A program made the translations under genes and the position numbers. Shown here in pieces: positions 6,552-15,323 of a stretch of DNA of 64,000 bases. This DNA is from Roseivirga spongicola (lineage in GTDB: Bacteria; Bacteroidota; Bacteroidia; Cytophagales; Cyclobacteriaceae). Each line of letters starts with the position of its first letter. The stretch's first letter is position 1. The notes under the pieces were generated by a model that was given only the letters and a program-made list of their open reading frames with translations, was not told the DNA's origin and ran no database searches. Location: assembly GCF_001592965.1 (NCBI RefSeq), contig NZ_LRPC01000031.1, positions 103,122-167,121 of the forward strand. The letters run 5' to 3'.

Positions 6552-7973
6552 CTAATCCACCTCCCCAAACCTTTCATCCCCACACATACGGACGATTTTT
6601 GGTTCGAAGGTACCAAGTACTTCAACCAAGTCGGTTTGTTGAGCCATTACCTCATGGATGTTTTTATAAACCTGAGGCGCTTCGTCCAAACCGGAACCGA
6701 TTAAGGTAACTCCAGCTTTTTTGATGTGCTTTTTCACTTCCTTTTTAGAAAGTGTCTGCTTGGCTTTGGTTCTGGAAAGTACCCTTCCTGCTCCATGAGA
6801 AGCTGAATTGATAGAATCCCCGTTCCCTTTGCCTTTTACAATAAAGCCCGGTGAGGTCATTGAGCCTGGGATAATTCCCAGAACACCTTCACCTGCTGGT
6901 GTAGCTCCTTTTCTATGCACAATGATTTCCTTTCCATCCGCATCTTGCTCTTTCCAGGCAAAGTTGTGGTGGTTTTCGATCAGTGCCAGTGGTTGCTCAC
7001 CTAAGGCAGCAGCCAGTCTATCGTGAATCTGGTGATGGCATGCCGAGGCATAGTCACCGGCCAGATTCATAGCTTGCCAGTATTCCTGACCCGCTTCAGT
7101 GTCTAAATCCAACCAAGCCAGATGCTTAGCTTCTCCCGGTAATTTGGTCATATCCATGGCCAGCTTGGTGTAATGCCTTGCGATATTCGCACCAAGTCCC
7201 CTCGATCCCGAGTGGGAGAGTACCGATAAATACTTGCCAACCGGCAGGTTGAATTCATTGATCTCCGAATGAATCTCAGTAATACCGAATTCCACAAAGT
7301 GGTTGCCACCTCCGGAAGAACCGATTTGCTTCCATGCTGTGTCTTTCAAAGATTTCAAAATATTGATTTCGTTGAAAAGCCCTCGGTCTAACACCTCATG
7401 GTCTTTTGGCCTTTTAAATACCGCCTGACCGAATTTGGTGTTCTCCATCAACATGTCCTTCAACTCCTCTGTGTTTTGATGCACAAAAGCAGGAGGGACG
7501 TCATACATGGTCATGCACATTCTGCAGCCAATGTCTACCCCAACTCCATAAGGGATCACTGCATTCTCAGTTGCCAGAACGCCACCAATTGGCAGTCCGT
7601 AGCCATGGTGTGCATCCGGCATCAGTGCTCCATACTTAGTCACCGGCAATTTCATGGCAATCTCCATTTGGTTGATTGCTCCTTGCTCAATGCCGTCTGC
7701 CCCATATATATGATATGGTATGCGTTTTTCCCGCAAAGCCAGTGTCTCGTTGTGGTCTTTTTTGATGATCAGCGCCATCGCCACAGGGCCCCAGGCCTCA
7801 TGTTTTAGGTAAAGACCAGGGTTTCCGACCACCTTTTTCAACATGGCTTTTTTATGCAATATGGATTTGCCTTTGAAATACTCTTCCATAGCCTTGATTG
7901 CCTCGCCAATGGCTCTGCCTTCAGGGAATCCGAGCTTTCTCAGGTCTTTTCCAGTTAATTTTCTCGTTGCCAT
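6552..7973 (-). CDS. rtcB: RNA-splicing ligase RtcB
   Basis: 473 residues. RtcB joins RNA 2',3'-cyclic phosphate or 3'-phosphate ends to 5'-OH ends, using GTP and Mn2+. The metal-site motifs are all present: VDIGC (Asp147, Cys150), GGNHFVEF (His225), SHSGSRGLG (His254) and the ENHHN histidines (335/336). HRKGATPA (His353) is the region holding the guanylated histidine in characterised RtcBs, and the SHGAGR loop (392-397) is intact. The first ~85 residues are a family-typical N-terminal extension. ATG at 7973 is chosen over a TTG at 7982. It overlaps the upstream TPR gene by 19 nt, so translation is probably coupled. It is the last gene of a minus-strand series: tRNA-like RNAs, slipin, TPR, rtcB. 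No RtcA, RtcR or Archease gene is visible. Confidence 0.96.
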   Translation of the reverse strand: MATRKLTGKDLRKLGFPEGRAIGEAIKAMEEYFKGKSILHKKAMLKKVVGNPGLYLKHEAWGPVAMALIIKKDHNETLALREKRIPYHIYGADGIEQGAINQMEIAMKLPVTKYGALMPDAHHGYGLPIGGVLATENAVIPYGVGVDIGCRMCMTMYDVPPAFVHQNTEELKDMLMENTKFGQAVFKRPKDHEVLDRGLFNEINILKSLKDTAWKQIGSSGGGNHFVEFGITEIHSEINEFNLPVGKYLSVLSHSGSRGLGANIARHYTKLAMDMTKLPGEAKHLAWLDLDTEAGQEYWQAMNLAGDYASACHHQIHDRLAAALGEQPLALIENHHNFAWKEQDADGKEIIVHRKGATPAGEGVLGIIPGSMTSPGFIVKGKGNGDSINSASHGAGRVLSRTKAKQTLSKKEVKKHIKKAGVTLIGSGLDEAPQVYKNIHEVMAQQTDLVEVLGTFEPKIVRMCGDERFGEVD

Positions 7974-8479
7974 AATTTCCAACGTTTCTTTAGTCGTTTG
8001 TACTTATTTCGCTTGATGTGGTCTTTCAAATCGTCCACATCATAGTTGTCAAGGGCTTGCATCATACCTTTTCGGTACCAAGCAATCGCCTTGCTAAATT
8101 GACCTTGAGTTTCGGCCACTTTGCCTAGGTTTTCATAGACAAAGGTTTTGTTGAAGCCTTCAACCTTCATGGCTTTATGCATAAGGTTTTCCAGACCAAG
8201 GTATTTCTCATTATCCAGATAGAGCTGCGCGAGATTGACATAAGCACTTCGGTAATCTGGTTTAAATTTTATTGCCAGCAGATAATGCTGTTCAGCTCCC
8301 GCTTTATCATCAAGGCCGTATTGAAGTAGGCAAGCCATTCTAAAATGAAGTTTGGCACTACCAGGCTCTTCACACAATCCTCTCTCAAACCATCTTTTGG
8401 CCTCATCATCTTGGCCATTATCTATGGCTTGATCTGCCATCTGAATAATACTTTCTATGTATTCTTCGTAAATGTCCAT
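7955..8479 (-). CDS. TPR-repeat protein coupled to rtcB
   Basis: 174 residues from ATG 8479 (MDIYEEYIES). It contains about four degenerate tetratricopeptide repeats (for example AKRWFERGLCEEPGSAKLH, AEQHYLLAIKFKPDYRSAY, FSKAIAWYRKGM) and a basic end (KRNKYKRLKKRWKLW). Its 3' end overlaps the rtcB start by 19 nt. An upstream in-frame extension to 8539 exists but looks non-coding. The likely role is a protein-interaction adaptor for RtcB, judged from the overlap only. Confidence 0.8.
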   Translation of the reverse strand: MDIYEEYIESIIQMADQAIDNGQDDEAKRWFERGLCEEPGSAKLHFRMACLLQYGLDDKAGAEQHYLLAIKFKPDYRSAYVNLAQLYLDNEKYLGLENLMHKAMKVEGFNKTFVYENLGKVAETQGQFSKAIAWYRKGMMQALDNYDVDDLKDHIKRNKYKRLKKRWKLWQREN

Positions 8480-8615
8480 TTTCGTTTGAGAGGGTAAATA
8501 CCCCTCAGTCCTTCGGACAGCACCCCTAAAGTGGAGCACAGAATCCGCAGCATTGGGAGGTATTCCCTCAGTTTTTATGTAATTGTTTCATGTTCCTTTT
8601 TATCCTCTCTTTGGA

Positions 8616-8710: not shown

Positions 8711-9805
8711 CTACCTAGAGAAAATCTCCTTCAATTGATCTACCACCTGATTGCCGCCAGAAAGTGAAATGTTGTTGATCTTATCTGCGATTCGTTCAAC
8801 ATATTCCATCTCCTTCAATTTGAACAACATGTCGTTGTCTTCCATCAATTTGGCGGTGTTCAACAAGCTTCTGGTAGAAGCTGTTTCTTCACGTCTGGTA
8901 ATCACGTTGGCTTGTGCTTGTTTTTGCGCCACCAAAACTTGGTTCATGATGTTTCTCAATTCACCGGAAAGTATAATGTCCTTGACACCACAATCCCTGA
9001 TTTCAATTCCCAGAGTTTCGGCTTTGCTCTTCAGAACTTCCAGTACATATTCTGCAATCGCAGATTTTTGCTCTAGCAGTTCGTCAAGCGTGTAGTTGCC
9101 AATGTATTCCCTCAAAGCTAACTGCATCAATACATAGAGCTGTTTTTCAGCATCCTTGTTGTCGATAAGAAATTTCTCAATATCAACCACTTTGTATTGG
9201 CAGTAGAAGTTGATTCTCAAACCGGCTTTGTCTTTGGTGAGAATTTCCTGACCAGAAATTTCCATTTGAAGCTTCCTCATATCAGCCTTCAAAACATTGA
9301 TGGCGGTGGTGTTTTTCCAGAAGTAGTAAGTGCCTTTATCAAGCGTTTTTTCCAACTTTCCATCTATCATCAAGAGTCCTTTTTCGTAAGATTCAACTAC
9401 GTAAACTCTGATGTGTCTTAGCAAATCGGTGCTGGTAAACACAGCTTTGCTAATGTCTTGCGAAATGTTGAAATCGCTTAGGTCTACTCTGGTGAAAGTG
9501 TATTCCACCAAACCTTTCCAGAAAGCATACTTTCCTACAGTCAAAACTTGTTTGAACTTGCCGTCAGCATATTGAATGACAATCTCATTGTCTTTCACGT
9601 CTACTACTTCAAGCATTGAAGCCAAGGCTTCATCCTTCAAAAGGATGTTTAAGTTTTTAGAAGAGTAGAACTGATCGGTAAGGTTGTAAACCATTACAGT
9701 GTCCGCTAGCGATAACCAAGTAGTACCTGCGGTGATCACTTTGCGGTAATCTCCATTTCTGAAAACCAAACCGACTTTTCCATCGTTGATTCGTATTCTT
9801 TTCAT
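8711..9805 (-). CDS. Slipin-family SPFH/band-7 protein next to rtcB
   Basis: 364 residues, ATG at 9805. The N-terminal third has two related beta-rich repeats (GLVFRNGDYRKVITAG near 13 and GLLMIDGKLEKTLDKGTYYFW near 144). An SPFH/band-7 core follows (about 175-310), with ALREYIGNYTLDELLEQKSAIAE-type sequence. It ends in a helical tail (AQKQAQANVITRREETASTR). There is no obvious transmembrane helix. Slipin/band-7 genes are known neighbours of rtcB in comparative genomics of RNA repair. The molecular role is unknown; a membrane-associated or ring-forming scaffold is the usual family behaviour. It is preceded by about 370 nt of untranslated DNA, then the two tRNA-like RNAs on the same strand. 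Confidence 0.87.
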   Translation of the reverse strand: MKRIRINDGKVGLVFRNGDYRKVITAGTTWLSLADTVMVYNLTDQFYSSKNLNILLKDEALASMLEVVDVKDNEIVIQYADGKFKQVLTVGKYAFWKGLVEYTFTRVDLSDFNISQDISKAVFTSTDLLRHIRVYVVESYEKGLLMIDGKLEKTLDKGTYYFWKNTTAINVLKADMRKLQMEISGQEILTKDKAGLRINFYCQYKVVDIEKFLIDNKDAEKQLYVLMQLALREYIGNYTLDELLEQKSAIAEYVLEVLKSKAETLGIEIRDCGVKDIILSGELRNIMNQVLVAQKQAQANVITRREETASTRSLLNTAKLMEDNDMLFKLKEMEYVERIADKINNISLSGGNQVVDQLKEIFSR

Positions 9806-10171
9806 TTTTACAATGGTTGTGAGGTTTCCCTCGGTTAAACATTTATTTATCGCTATTGGCCAAATAGTTTCGTTTTATGAAAGGTTGAACAGTTTTGCCA
9901 TCTATCCAAAGCGAGGTGTTTATTGAGTCTGAATTCAGAAGTGAGTTCTAGAGTCAGGGGAATTTGCTTGGAACTGAAGTTCGCAACGTCTTCCTGTGAC
10001 AGCAGAAGTCAAATCTTGCATCGGGCGATATCCTAAACCACCTTGGCTTTTTCAAAACTTTCCTCATCTACCGAAGTAGGTAAGGGGCAAACTGAATCTT
10101 CCTTTCAGTATTGGCATCGGTTTTTAAAGAAGACCCGATGAACTTCTGAAAATGGATTTTTAGTCCATTTA
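9806..10171 (-). other. Leader between the permuted tRNA and slipin
   Basis: No reading frame. Several small stem-loops are visible: CATCGG/CCGATG around 10115-10140, ACTGAA/TTCAGT around 10091-10109, a perfect palindrome TCTGAATTCAGA near 9930, and CTTC/GAAG-closed hairpins. Directly after the 5' half of the permuted tRNA there is a 5-bp stem with a 7-nt loop (ATGGA-CTAAAAA-TCCAT). It has T-arm geometry but lacks the TTCGA loop, so it looks like a diverged T-arm. Confidence 0.5.
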
Positions 10172-10260
10172 CCATGTTAAAAGCATGGTGCTCTACCAAC
10201 TAAGCTACTACCCCATTTCTCATTCAATTGTGGGGTAGGGAGGATTCGAACCTCCGACAA
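10172..10260 (-). tRNA. Circularly permuted tRNA-Lys (anticodon TTT)
   Basis: On the minus strand the 3' half comes first (10260-10231): variable loop TTGTC, T-stem GGAGG/CCTCC, loop TTCGAAT, acceptor strand CTACCCC, discriminator A. After a 16-nt linker (CAATTGAATGAGAAAT) comes the 5' half (10214-10172): GGGGTAG, T8 A9, D-stem GCTT/GAGC, D-loop AGTTGGTA, A26, anticodon stem CCATG/CATGG, loop CTTTTAA. The halves are exactly nucleotides 44-73 and 1-43. Joined, they give 73 nt with a perfect 7-bp acceptor stem and U8, A14, G15, G18, G19, A21, U33, C48, TTC and A58 all present. CCA is not encoded. Maturation needs ends joined at 43/44 and the linker removed, as for permuted tRNAs in red algae and archaea. 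Alternative: the inner halves of two decayed tandem tRNA-Lys genes. Confidence 0.75.
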
Positions 10261-10369
10261 GCATGGGAATATGTCCTCAAGCTAAGTAGCATACCGAGAC
10301 TTACTAGTTCGGCACTATGGGGCTATACTGAAACCCTCATCAGGCCTTATACCTGACGATTATATTCCG

Positions 10370-10452
10370 TGGAAATGGTAGGATTCGAACCTACTCAGCC
10401 TGAGGCACTGGTTTTACAGACCAGTATAACTCTCCCTCGTTATCGCATTTCC
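10370..10452 (-). tRNA. tRNA-Tyr(GTA)-like RNA with abnormal D domain
   Basis: 83 nt in normal order: acceptor GGAAATG/CATTTCC (7 bp), anticodon stem CTGGT/ACCAG with loop CTGTAAA (anticodon GTA, U33 present), long class II variable arm (GCC-TCA-GGC), T-arm GTAGG-TTCGAAT-CCTAC, discriminator A, no encoded CCA. The D domain is wrong for a normal tRNA: positions 8 and 9 are C and G, position 14 is C, and a 5-bp ATAAC/GTTAT stem closes a GAGGGAGA loop. U8-A14 cannot form. It may be a tRNA mimic rather than a translating tRNA-Tyr. Same strand as, and about 110 nt upstream of, the permuted tRNA-Lys. Confidence 0.72.
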
Positions 10453-10565: not shown

Positions 10566-10616
10566 GAAAGACTGCTTGAGGGCTTTAACCCTGCCTGCGG
10601 CAGGCAGGCTCTCTCC

Positions 10617-10792: not shown

Positions 10793-10827
10793 CAAAAAAA
10801 GCCCGGCCTTATGCAGACCGGGCTTTT
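10793..10827. terminator. Strong bidirectional intrinsic terminator
   Basis: AAAAGCCCGG (10797-10806) pairs with CCGGGCTTTT (10818-10827), 10 bp, loop of 11 nt, with an A-run on the left giving a U-run for minus-strand transcripts. It would end a minus-strand transcript arriving from 10854-10979 before the tRNA-like region. Confidence 0.85.
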
Positions 10828-10853: not shown

Positions 10854-10979
10854 TCAAGTCATATTCTTCCCGATCTTATTTTGCAAAAGACATATTTTAC
10901 CAACTTCAAAATCACTGTGATTTTGATAGCCCAAAGGCGCTAGTCCTGTGTTTTCTAAGCGAATTGTCATCTTCTGCAT
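10854..10979 (-). CDS. Possible 41-residue small protein
   Basis: An ATG-to-TGA frame starting MQKMTIRLENTG, located between two terminators on the minus strand. There is no similarity I recognise and no clear ribosome-binding site. The frame contains a 21-bp inverted repeat (10906-10926). It may instead be untranslated RNA. Low confidence. Confidence 0.25.
   Translation of the reverse strand: MQKMTIRLENTGLAPLGYQNHSDFEVGKICLLQNKIGKNMT
10906..10926. promoter_or_regulatory. 21-bp inverted repeat, candidate operator or hairpin
   Basis: TCAAAATCAC, one central T, then GTGATTTTGA: a perfect 10-bp inverted repeat. Without a T-run it is not a terminator. It resembles a dimeric regulator site or an RNA hairpin. 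Confidence 0.4.
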
Positions 10980-10996: not shown

Positions 10997-11025
10997 ACAA
11001 AAAACCCGAACTGAAAGCCCGGGTT
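10997..11025 (-). terminator. Intrinsic terminator of the small RNA
   Basis: On the minus strand AACCCG (11025-11020) pairs with CGGGTT (11008-11003), followed by a T-run (A-run on plus at 10998-11005). Confidence 0.75.
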
Positions 11026-11149
11026 GTAAAAATCTTATATCGAAAATTCTACTTTCCCGAACGGCTTTCATCACATAGATCATAGGCTGTTTTACCTATT
11101 GGCTGTAATGTTTCGCTATGTGAGTTGAAATTTTTCATTTCGTTGTTAT
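10998..11149 (-). ncRNA. Candidate small RNA (~150 nt), promoter to terminator
   Basis: A Bacteroidetes-type promoter (11155-11186) is followed about 125 nt later by an intrinsic terminator (10997-11025), with no open frame between. Internal structure: TCACATAG pairs with CTATGTGA (8 bp), enclosing ATAGG/CCTAT, and there is a 5' hairpin GAAAT/ATTTC. It does not match tmRNA, SRP RNA or RNase P RNA by eye. A 6S-Flavo-type RNA or another Bacteroidetes sRNA is possible but not shown. Confidence 0.55.
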
Positions 11150-14277: not shown

Positions 14278-14865
14278 TTAAGTTCTCACAAACTCCACTA
14301 ACCCAGAATAATCATGATTGTCGGCTTGCCTTAATGCTTGAATATATTGTGACCTCACATTCCCTTGGTTGTCAATGTTGGTACTTCCCCAAGTAAATGG
14401 CTCTAAGCCAAAAACATCCATAAGCAGTCGGTCAGTCGCTAGTCGAGCGTGTCTACCATTACCATTCGGAAATAAATGTATCCACACCAATCTATGATGA
14501 AACCTTACAGCAATTTCATCCGATGGAAATGTTTCATGCTCTATCCAATAATTCATGTCATTAATTAGTTGGCGAAGCTCAATTGGTACTTGAACCCAAT
14601 CAATTCCGATACTCTTTTCAGATCGTCTGAAGTCACCAGCCCATTGCCAAACCTTCCCAAACATTTGTTTGTGAAGGGTGGTCAAGAACTCTTCGGAAAC
14701 CACATTCTTTTTATTTCGCCTTCTCTCACACCAAGAATAGGCTTGATTGATATTTTCCTGTTCCCAACGGTTGAGTTCTTCACGGGTAGATATATGAGAG
14801 AGTTTTAAGCCAACTGCTTCATCGGGATCGAGAGGTGTTGCGCCATCTGGTTCTTCAAATATCAT
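14278..14865 (-). CDS. Mobile mystery protein B (Fic-domain protein)
   Basis: About 195 residues. It starts near MIFEEPDGATPLDPDEA and carries the Fic active-site motif HLFPNGNGRHAR (HxFx(D/N)GNGRxxR), with the histidine needed for AMP or other nucleotide transfer. It fits mobile mystery protein B (TIGR02613). ATG 14865 forms an ATGA overlap with the stop of the upstream mobile mystery A gene and is preferred to ATG 14877. Fic enzymes modify target proteins. The target here is unknown; a toxin-like role held in check by partner A is a common guess. Confidence 0.88.
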   Translation of the reverse strand: MIFEEPDGATPLDPDEAVGLKLSHISTREELNRWEQENINQAYSWCERRRNKKNVVSEEFLTTLHKQMFGKVWQWAGDFRRSEKSIGIDWVQVPIELRQLINDMNYWIEHETFPSDEIAVRFHHRLVWIHLFPNGNGRHARLATDRLLMDVFGLEPFTWGSTNIDNQGNVRSQYIQALRQADNHDYSGLVEFVRT

Positions 14866-15323
14866 TTGATCTCCCATAACTCTTTATCACCCTCTATCAG
14901 GATACGATCAACCATATCACTTATGGCCTTTTCCTTTTCAGGCTCACTTAAGTTTTGAAGCTCTAAGCGCATGGTGTGATCAAGTCGTTCCATGCGACTT
15001 AAAGCAAGTTTTCTAGCCTGTGATCTAACAGTATTTTCAAGGCTTTCTTTAGGAACAAAGCCATATACAAACTTCATCCCTAACCCTTCAGCTACCTTAT
15101 TCATAGTTGATAGCTTGAGGTTTTCTTCGGGTTCAGCTTGCTCCATATGAGTTATGCGAGGTTGATTAACACCAACTCTTTTTGCCAATTGAGCAGTTGT
15201 CATCCCTAAGGCTTCCCGAATTGTTTTTATCCATCCGTTTGACGGTAAAGGAGGTGTAGACCTAAATTTAACAAGCTTTTTATCAAGCTGTTCACGTACT
15301 AATAACTTGTCCCAGTGGTTCAT
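14862..15323 (-). CDS. Mobile mystery protein A (XRE-type HTH regulator)
   Basis: 153 residues. A helix-turn-helix of the XRE/Cro type lies at about 33-90 (GMTTAQLAKRVGVNQPRITHMEQ), followed by a helical C-terminal region. It fits mobile mystery protein A (TIGR02612), nearly always found directly upstream of protein B. Overlap with B is ATGA, so translation is coupled. Probable repressor of its own operon and antitoxin-like partner. Confidence 0.88.
   Translation of the reverse strand: MNHWDKLLVREQLDKKLVKFRSTPPLPSNGWIKTIREALGMTTAQLAKRVGVNQPRITHMEQAEPEENLKLSTMNKVAEGLGMKFVYGFVPKESLENTVRSQARKLALSRMERLDHTMRLELQNLSEPEKEKAISDMVDRILIEGDKELWEIK

Follow-up and report, generated by a model that had tools for sequence, protein, structure and literature searches.

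Gene content of the slipin locus

The 64,000-nt stretch of Roseivirga spongicola DNA analysed here (the window) carries on its minus strand a cluster of genes for a slipin (SPFH/Band 7; 8711..9805), a TPR protein (7955..8539) and an RtcB RNA ligase family protein (6552..7982), the last of which matches Pfam PF01139 over its cut-off and the NCBIfam RtcB models below theirs. The slipin gene is the first protein gene downstream of a tRNA-like unit at 10260-10172 (minus strand, variable-loop piece included), which a first-pass annotation had read as a circularly permuted tRNA-Lys(UUU) gene possibly dependent on rtcB; the hint was apt, in that rtcB lies in the adjacent gene cluster. Also on the minus strand, at 14278-15323, a Fic-family protein is encoded beside a helix-turn-helix protein, possibly forming a toxin-antitoxin-like pair.

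Farther upstream, two leader ORFs of 29 codons (11049..11138, minus strand) and 41 codons (10854..10979, minus strand) end 23 or 28 nt before terminator-like hairpins on the same strand (11003..11025 and 10799..10825, respectively), the two pairs spanning 11138-11003 and 10979-10799. Tandem pairs of this kind, with ORFs of 28-53 codons whose stop lies 22-28 nt ahead of a hairpin of 10-13 bp with a T-run, occur in 7 of the 7 loci checked (from the set of the window, L001-L005, L013 and L016). The check covered 7 of the 19 genome-search loci, chosen for having terminators that could be seen by eye. Judged from sequence, the tandem units look like a putative translation-controlled attenuation system for the downstream tRNA array and operon. 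GC-rich palindromes of the type CCTGCCTGCCGCAGGCAGG were observed in or near tRNA elements, for instance in the L008 array and around position 10600 of the window, and may be the cause of overlong tRNAs. A Tyr-like tRNA gene in ordinary order but with an unusual D-arm (10370..10452, minus strand; 41.4 bits; missed by ARAGORN) adjoins the permuted RNA.

Structure of the permuted unit

Read 5′ to 3′ on the minus strand, the unit begins with a variable-loop piece, TTGTC (10260-10256), and continues from 10255 to 10172 through a T-arm, the 3′ strand of the acceptor, a linker, the 5′ strand of the acceptor, a D-arm and a UUU anticodon arm, as the first-pass annotation had described. The T-arm, GGAGGTTCGAATCCTCC (10239..10255), has a helix that is 100% paired over the 98 distinct rows of alignment A2 (described below). 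The acceptor 3′ strand CTACCCC (10232..10238), assigned by register pairing and covariation, forms 7 of 7 pairs with the 5′ strand GGGGTAG (10208..10214), and the two are separated by A73 and a 16-nt A/T-rich linker, 17 nt together (10215..10231). The dinucleotide TA leads from the 5′ strand, which ends at 10208, to the D-arm, which starts at 10205 and is covered by the A2 covariation alignment (10190..10205). The D-arm is followed by A26 and by the anticodon arm CCATG-CTTTTAA-CATGG (10172..10188), all on the minus strand.

When the two halves are joined at 43/44, they give a complete 73-nt tRNA that ARAGORN calls tRNA-Lys(ttt), bearing out the earlier description, whereas the same program finds no gene in the stretch in its native order. 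A strict search (5/5 T-arm, 7/7 acceptor and 4/4 D-arm pairs) had a single hit over both strands of the window, the unit on the minus strand, and no hit when 50 shuffles were searched on both strands; a loose search returned four places including the unit, and 31 in 20 one-strand shuffles. Model R1, built with the window sequence included, scores the unit at 55.8 bits (E 3e-14). The permuted cloverleaf comes straight out of energy folding (z −2.9; 1 of 200 shuffles equally stable), and folding alone recovers the T-arm, acceptor hairpin, D-arm and anticodon arm together with one further hairpin (10168-10152). By eye, a 4-bp CCAT/ATGG pairing of the flanks is also possible, in competition with that hairpin. 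The Rfam tRNA model reads the unit as an off-register tRNA and ARAGORN misses it, making the unit an example of how ordinary tRNA finders misread permuted units.

The first-pass annotation had taken the outer flanks for decayed tRNA halves, a description that does not hold. On the 3′ side, the further hairpin, ATGGA-CTAAAAA-TCCAT (10152..10168, minus strand), is itself like an anticodon arm and recurs in relatives (by eye, uncounted). It is followed by a predicted H-type pseudoknot formed by AGAAG/CTTCT and CATCGG/CCGATG (10115..10147, minus strand). With a strict, shuffle-controlled finder that still picks some doubtful stems, an H-type pseudoknot 3′ of the units reaches a score of at least 8 in 62 of 82 loci versus a mean of 3.0 in shuffles, and the stricter score of 10 in 38 of 82 versus 0.7; this finder replaced an earlier, looser one, whose calls contained spurious stems and were rejected. 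On the 5′ side lies a conserved, covarying domain of the same RNA (10265..10357, minus strand). In alignment A3, this domain before the first unit has 98.1% of cells paired and a covariation score of 0.60 versus 0.26 shuffled over 32 rows. These were taken from 38 regions that a search of the 92 loci returned with a pattern in which some of the sequence flanking the helices is prescribed; five outliers and one near-duplicate were left out. As modelled, the permuted unit is predicted to sit within a larger structured RNA, with the covarying 5′ domain and the pseudoknot, upstream of slipin, TPR and RtcB genes.

Permuted units in relatives

Slipin searches gave 19 close homologues in 59 genomes, the window's own included, and 80 named loci, whose records nearly all carry labels of Bacteroidota taxa (three have other labels). 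Seven of 99 upstream regions were removed as duplicates, leaving 92, and nine weak slipin matches (L020-L028) were left aside. The slipin is sporadic: a sample of 296 genomes from the phylum contains it, at E 1e-60, in 14.

Units were detected through a T-arm and the next D-arm, independently of acceptor pairing. For the 136 units that lie no more than 1 kb from slipin (83 loci), the permuted register forms a mean of 6.21 of 7 acceptor pairs, with 111 of the 136 units at 6-7 pairs; the ordinary register of these proximal units forms 3.39 of 7 (n = 44, including two that are clearly ordinary tRNAs) versus 3.42 (sd 0.12) with shuffled partners. Farther upstream (70 units, 29 loci), the ordinary register forms 6.67 pairs (n = 60) and the permuted register 3.13. 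The method thus separates the two kinds, reading distal tRNAs as ordinary and proximal units as permuted, and the proximal units are permuted. The first-pass annotation had proposed looking for the same order in related genomes, and it recurs with 6-7 of the 7 acceptor pairs at 74 of the 92 slipin loci, or 82 of 92 at five pairs or more, 44 of these 82 having two or more units. With shuffled partners a unit reaches six pairs in 8% and five in 23% of cases, and a few of the five-pair loci may be due to chance. In 7 of the 10 remaining loci, none of which had been used in training, a model built from A2 located units no more than 1 kb upstream of slipin; it gave no unit in the last three, for one of which only 62 nt of upstream sequence were available. 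Model R1 also matches all 19 slipin genomes next to slipin, a result that is partly circular in that R1 was trained on most such loci. Its genome-wide matches have a high background, with at least 56 of 59 genomes represented among the matches listed; R1 also matches ordinary tandem tRNAs and TROVE-adjacent Y RNAs, and only slipin-adjacent matches were used.

Alignment A2 (100 rows, 98 distinct) combines the window unit with 99 units whose linker is at most 9 nt long, out of 100 such units; it leaves out L057:5092-5147 and every long-linker unit except that of the window, and 4 of the 136 proximal units had been removed beforehand as ordinary or doubtful. Its cells pair in 95.0% of cases versus 66.2% when shuffled, with a covariation score of 0.80 versus 0.24 shuffled and at most 0.20 slid; related sequences can outscore such shuffles even without structure, but the slid and ordinary-register controls carry the same relatedness. 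All seven acceptor pairs vary on both sides. The acceptor has 91.4% of its cells paired, and pairing is weakest at the outermost position listed (columns 24/42), which is unpaired in 35 of 98 rows. Because of this covariation across relatives, the permuted order is, on sequence grounds, judged to be held by selection, as the first-pass annotation had suspected.

The relatives vary in their linkers and anticodon arms. Among 111 well-paired units, the linker has 1-6 nt in 82, 7-16 nt in 11 and 17-23 nt in 18, and the window unit belongs to the last, mostly A/T-rich group. By eye, the window unit and 15 other long-linker units combine G/C-rich acceptors with linkers of 17-23 nt and 65-90% A+T. 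A 5-bp/7-nt anticodon arm is present in 48 of the 82 last units (6% at random positions) and absent from 34; U33 is found in 45 of the 48, and their most frequent loop (14 of 48) is CTTTTAA, that of the window unit. Of 46 units standing earlier in a series, 44 have no such arm and two do. The last unit begins 326-810 nt (median 480) before slipin.

RtcB lies downstream at 37 and upstream at 11 of 80 loci (48 in total within the flanking DNA examined), a tally that includes 7 duplicates and distant RtcB paralogues; it was not found in the flanks examined, partly too short, at 32 of the 80. At L060 and L063 neither a unit nor RtcB was found in the flanks examined. Of 28 loci examined, 13 (L067, L068 and L114 among them) have a homologous gene on the upstream side of the array, and the three copies scanned match TPR families, placing the array and permuted RNA between TPR and slipin there.

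ARAGORN reports 248 tRNAs upstream of slipin in 59 of the 92 loci, all on the slipin strand, of which some few may be misread permuted units. The array isotypes are mostly those of two-codon boxes (Tyr 34, Phe 24, Gln 23, Asp 20, Cys 16, Glu 15, Lys 13), and Ala (0), Thr (1) and Gly (2) are rare. Slipin leaders labelled Subdoligranulum, Burkholderia and Photobacterium (L134, L135, L138, L139) hold tRNA-like pieces, which in Burkholderia and Photobacterium are in ordinary order by eye, and both Burkholderia slipin loci have sigma54-like sites. In E. coli and Citrobacter (L133, L136, L137), the leader of an operon of slipin and a nucleotidyltransferase has a T-arm and a 6-7 bp hairpin; this operon has matches in 1650 of 5426 complete E. 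coli genomes, and in Citrobacter it adjoins rtcR. The two E. coli leaders also have a sigma54-like site upstream, the pattern of which has no match in the Citrobacter copy.

Comparison with known RNAs

To our knowledge, permuted tRNA folds in bacteria have so far been linked either to Ro60 (as Y RNAs) or to tmRNA. The closest known RNA is YrlA (RF02553; PDB 6CU1), a bacterial Y RNA which has the order T-arm, acceptor hairpin, D-arm in common with the window unit. RF02553 aligns to the unit end to end over the full model length, weakly and with mismatches in the outer stems, a point that bears on the Ro-binding basal stem (33.1 bits, E 6e-5; gathering cut-off 69 bits). The cut-off was reached in none of 59 genomes, and this weak match says little by itself, because weak YrlA matches also occur in 7 of 14 control genomes. 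Ro60/TROVE (PF05731) has no match in the genome of the window or in 16 of 19 slipin-locus genomes, and a canonical Y RNA was ruled out by the absence of Ro60 and the sub-cut-off score. In 6 of 9 Ro60-bearing genomes a weak YrlA match lies no more than about 2 kb from the Ro60 gene, which places true Y RNAs there at separate loci. Four R1 matches beside a Ro60 gene (G040:C1:5845229-5847514) are possibly a tandem Y RNA array. Unlike YrlA, the RNA described here often has units in series, often carries an anticodon arm on the last unit, and belongs to a larger RNA with a pseudoknot and a 5′ domain beside slipin, with no Ro60 match and a score below the Rfam cut-off.

The first-pass annotation had known of no established bacterial case, a statement that needs revision: permuted tRNA folds are known in bacteria from YrlA, which superposes on tRNA as a circular permutation (PMC11472068), and from two-piece tmRNA (PMC3978253). 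Permuted two-piece tmRNA (RF04321) likewise places the 3′ acceptor strand before the 5′ strand across a linker, with a pseudoknot nearby, and its model covers the T-arm and acceptor of the unit at 21.9 bits, versus a cut-off of 47. Unlike two-piece tmRNA, most relatives have a short loop for a linker, and the genome has an ordinary tmRNA on another contig, which ruled out the unit as the genome's own tmRNA. A copy of the host tRNA-Lys was also ruled out, the best identity being 75%, to tRNA-Pro, among 30 ordinary tRNAs compared (the Met gene of the window and five further tRNA places left out). Besides the tmRNA, the genome contains an ordinary tRNA-Lys(UUU) and tRNA-Tyr elsewhere.

YrlA binds Rsr and PNPase and is located in the Salmonella rtcB operon (PMC8394870, PMC7790460). 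This rsr-yrlBA-rtcBA operon resembles the window in joining rtcB with a tRNA-mimic RNA; slipin and TPR here replace Rsr and RtcA, and attenuator-like leaders stand upstream. In Anabaena, clustered extra tRNA genes of the trn operon, with the repressor TrcR, are described as co-regulated with rtcB and a slipin gene, but the tRNA cluster, rtcB and slipin are separate loci and the portion of the report available describes no permuted tRNA (PMC10272220). Among the literature titles and abstract openings covered, a partial sample from which absence from print is not claimed, none concerned slipin-linked tRNA-like leaders.

Candidate functions

Two readings see in the unit a tRNA gene or the remains of such genes. 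Ordinary-order tRNA genes do lie upstream of the unit in the window and in relatives, as expected were it the relic of two tandem genes with decayed outer halves that the first-pass annotation had also entertained. This reading is ruled out by permuted-register pairing and compensatory changes over many loci, together with flanks that are conserved structures; barring an artefactual alignment, covariation refutes it, and its probability is next to nil. A permuted mimic accounts for a gene order that otherwise resembles a broken tRNA. It is also highly improbable that the unit is a true permuted tRNA gene, circularised by RtcB and opened at the linker to translate AAA/AAG. The permuted genes of unicellular algae and Thermofilum pendens likewise have the 3′ half first and give a full tRNA when joined, and the complete tRNA-Lys called by ARAGORN and the neighbouring rtcB are in keeping with such a gene. 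In contrast to those systems, the splicing endonuclease family (PF01974, which gave matches in four archaeal controls) is without a match in the genome, linkers in relatives are usually 1-6 nt, and earlier units lack an anticodon arm. For these reasons, and given the ordinary tRNA-Lys(UUU), the unit of the window is probably not a translating tRNA, and the algal or archaeal kind of gene favoured in the first-pass annotation is not sustained.

Three further readings keep the permuted RNA as a functional element. RNase P and RNase Z might cut the linker and free an acceptor end, producing a two-piece tRNA-like RNA as in permuted tmRNA; the 16 long-linker units, the window's included, have A/T-rich linkers that by eye resemble a 3′ trailer plus 5′ leader, and RF04321 matches weakly over T-arm and acceptor, but the 1-6 nt linkers of 82 of 111 well-paired units and the ability of several other long linkers to fold on themselves (by eye) make this very unlikely. 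A purely cis-acting leader, in which uncut mimics and the pseudoknot control slipin translation or mRNA stability, would fit the position of the units upstream of slipin on the same strand, even where a TPR gene or RtcB is upstream instead, and the minus strand of the window has no terminator-like site between the unit and slipin. The distance from the last unit to slipin is, however, far for direct control of the ribosome-binding site, and this explanation seems unlikely. The main rival to a bait or sensor is a Y-RNA-like scaffold without Ro60 that would bind an effector, for example PNPase, tRNA-modifying enzymes or slipin, and steer the decay or repair of RNA in the manner of YrlA. It draws on the order shared with RF02553, the weak full-model match and the PNPase binding and rtcB operon of YrlA, while the missing Ro60/TROVE matches, the YrlA cut-off reached in no genome and the weak matches in controls weigh against it; it is rather unlikely, if a serious contender.

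The reading preferred here, at close to but not quite an even chance, is that a covarying family of permuted tRNA mimics beside Bacteroidota slipin genes is embedded in the leader and acts as a bait or sensor, not as a translating tRNA. The joined acceptor strands would prevent charging of the mimic, and a short-loop linker would spare it from excision by RNase P and RNase Z, so the mimic would stay covalently part of the operon leader RNA. The anticodon loop would then be an exposed site, lying in the chain between the slipin message and the upstream part of the leader. Should an anticodon nuclease cut this loop, the leader would be broken in two, with ends of the kind that RtcB reseals, and cutting and resealing could tie tRNA damage to the expression or activity of the repair proteins.

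A bait or sensor is favoured because RtcB is in the cluster and the leader ORF and terminator pairs would respond to translation. The permuted pairing, the anticodon arms with U33, the pseudoknot, the proximity of RtcB and the induction of the YrlA-encoding Salmonella rtcB operon by tRNA halves (PMC7790460) lend support. A cut in the anticodon loop cannot be the whole story, because such an arm is missing from 34 of 82 last units and from 44 of 46 earlier ones. In Salmonella with cut tRNAs, fragments of YrlA, a known mimic of this kind, were not detected (PMC7790460), which counts against a model of anticodon-loop cutting only. The 32 of 80 loci with no RtcB in the flanks examined also weigh against this reading. 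The 17-nt linker of the window may moreover be long enough for cutting by RNase P and RNase Z, and the leader would then be split.

Implications

A more specific proposal, that slipin/RtcB leaders with one or two permuted mimics, the last of them often bearing an anticodon loop that looks functional (UUU being the most frequent), form a new RNA family cut by anticodon nucleases, resealed by RtcB and reporting tRNA damage, is put forward tentatively and is somewhat unlikely as a whole. If it were true, the cell would read its own tRNA damage from a decoy built into the messenger for its repair proteins. A Ro60-free, often serial and often anticodon-armed form beside RtcB would widen the class of bacterial permuted tRNA folds, and would offer a defined RNA for studying the repair targets of RtcB in bacteria and the sensing of cut tRNAs by cells.
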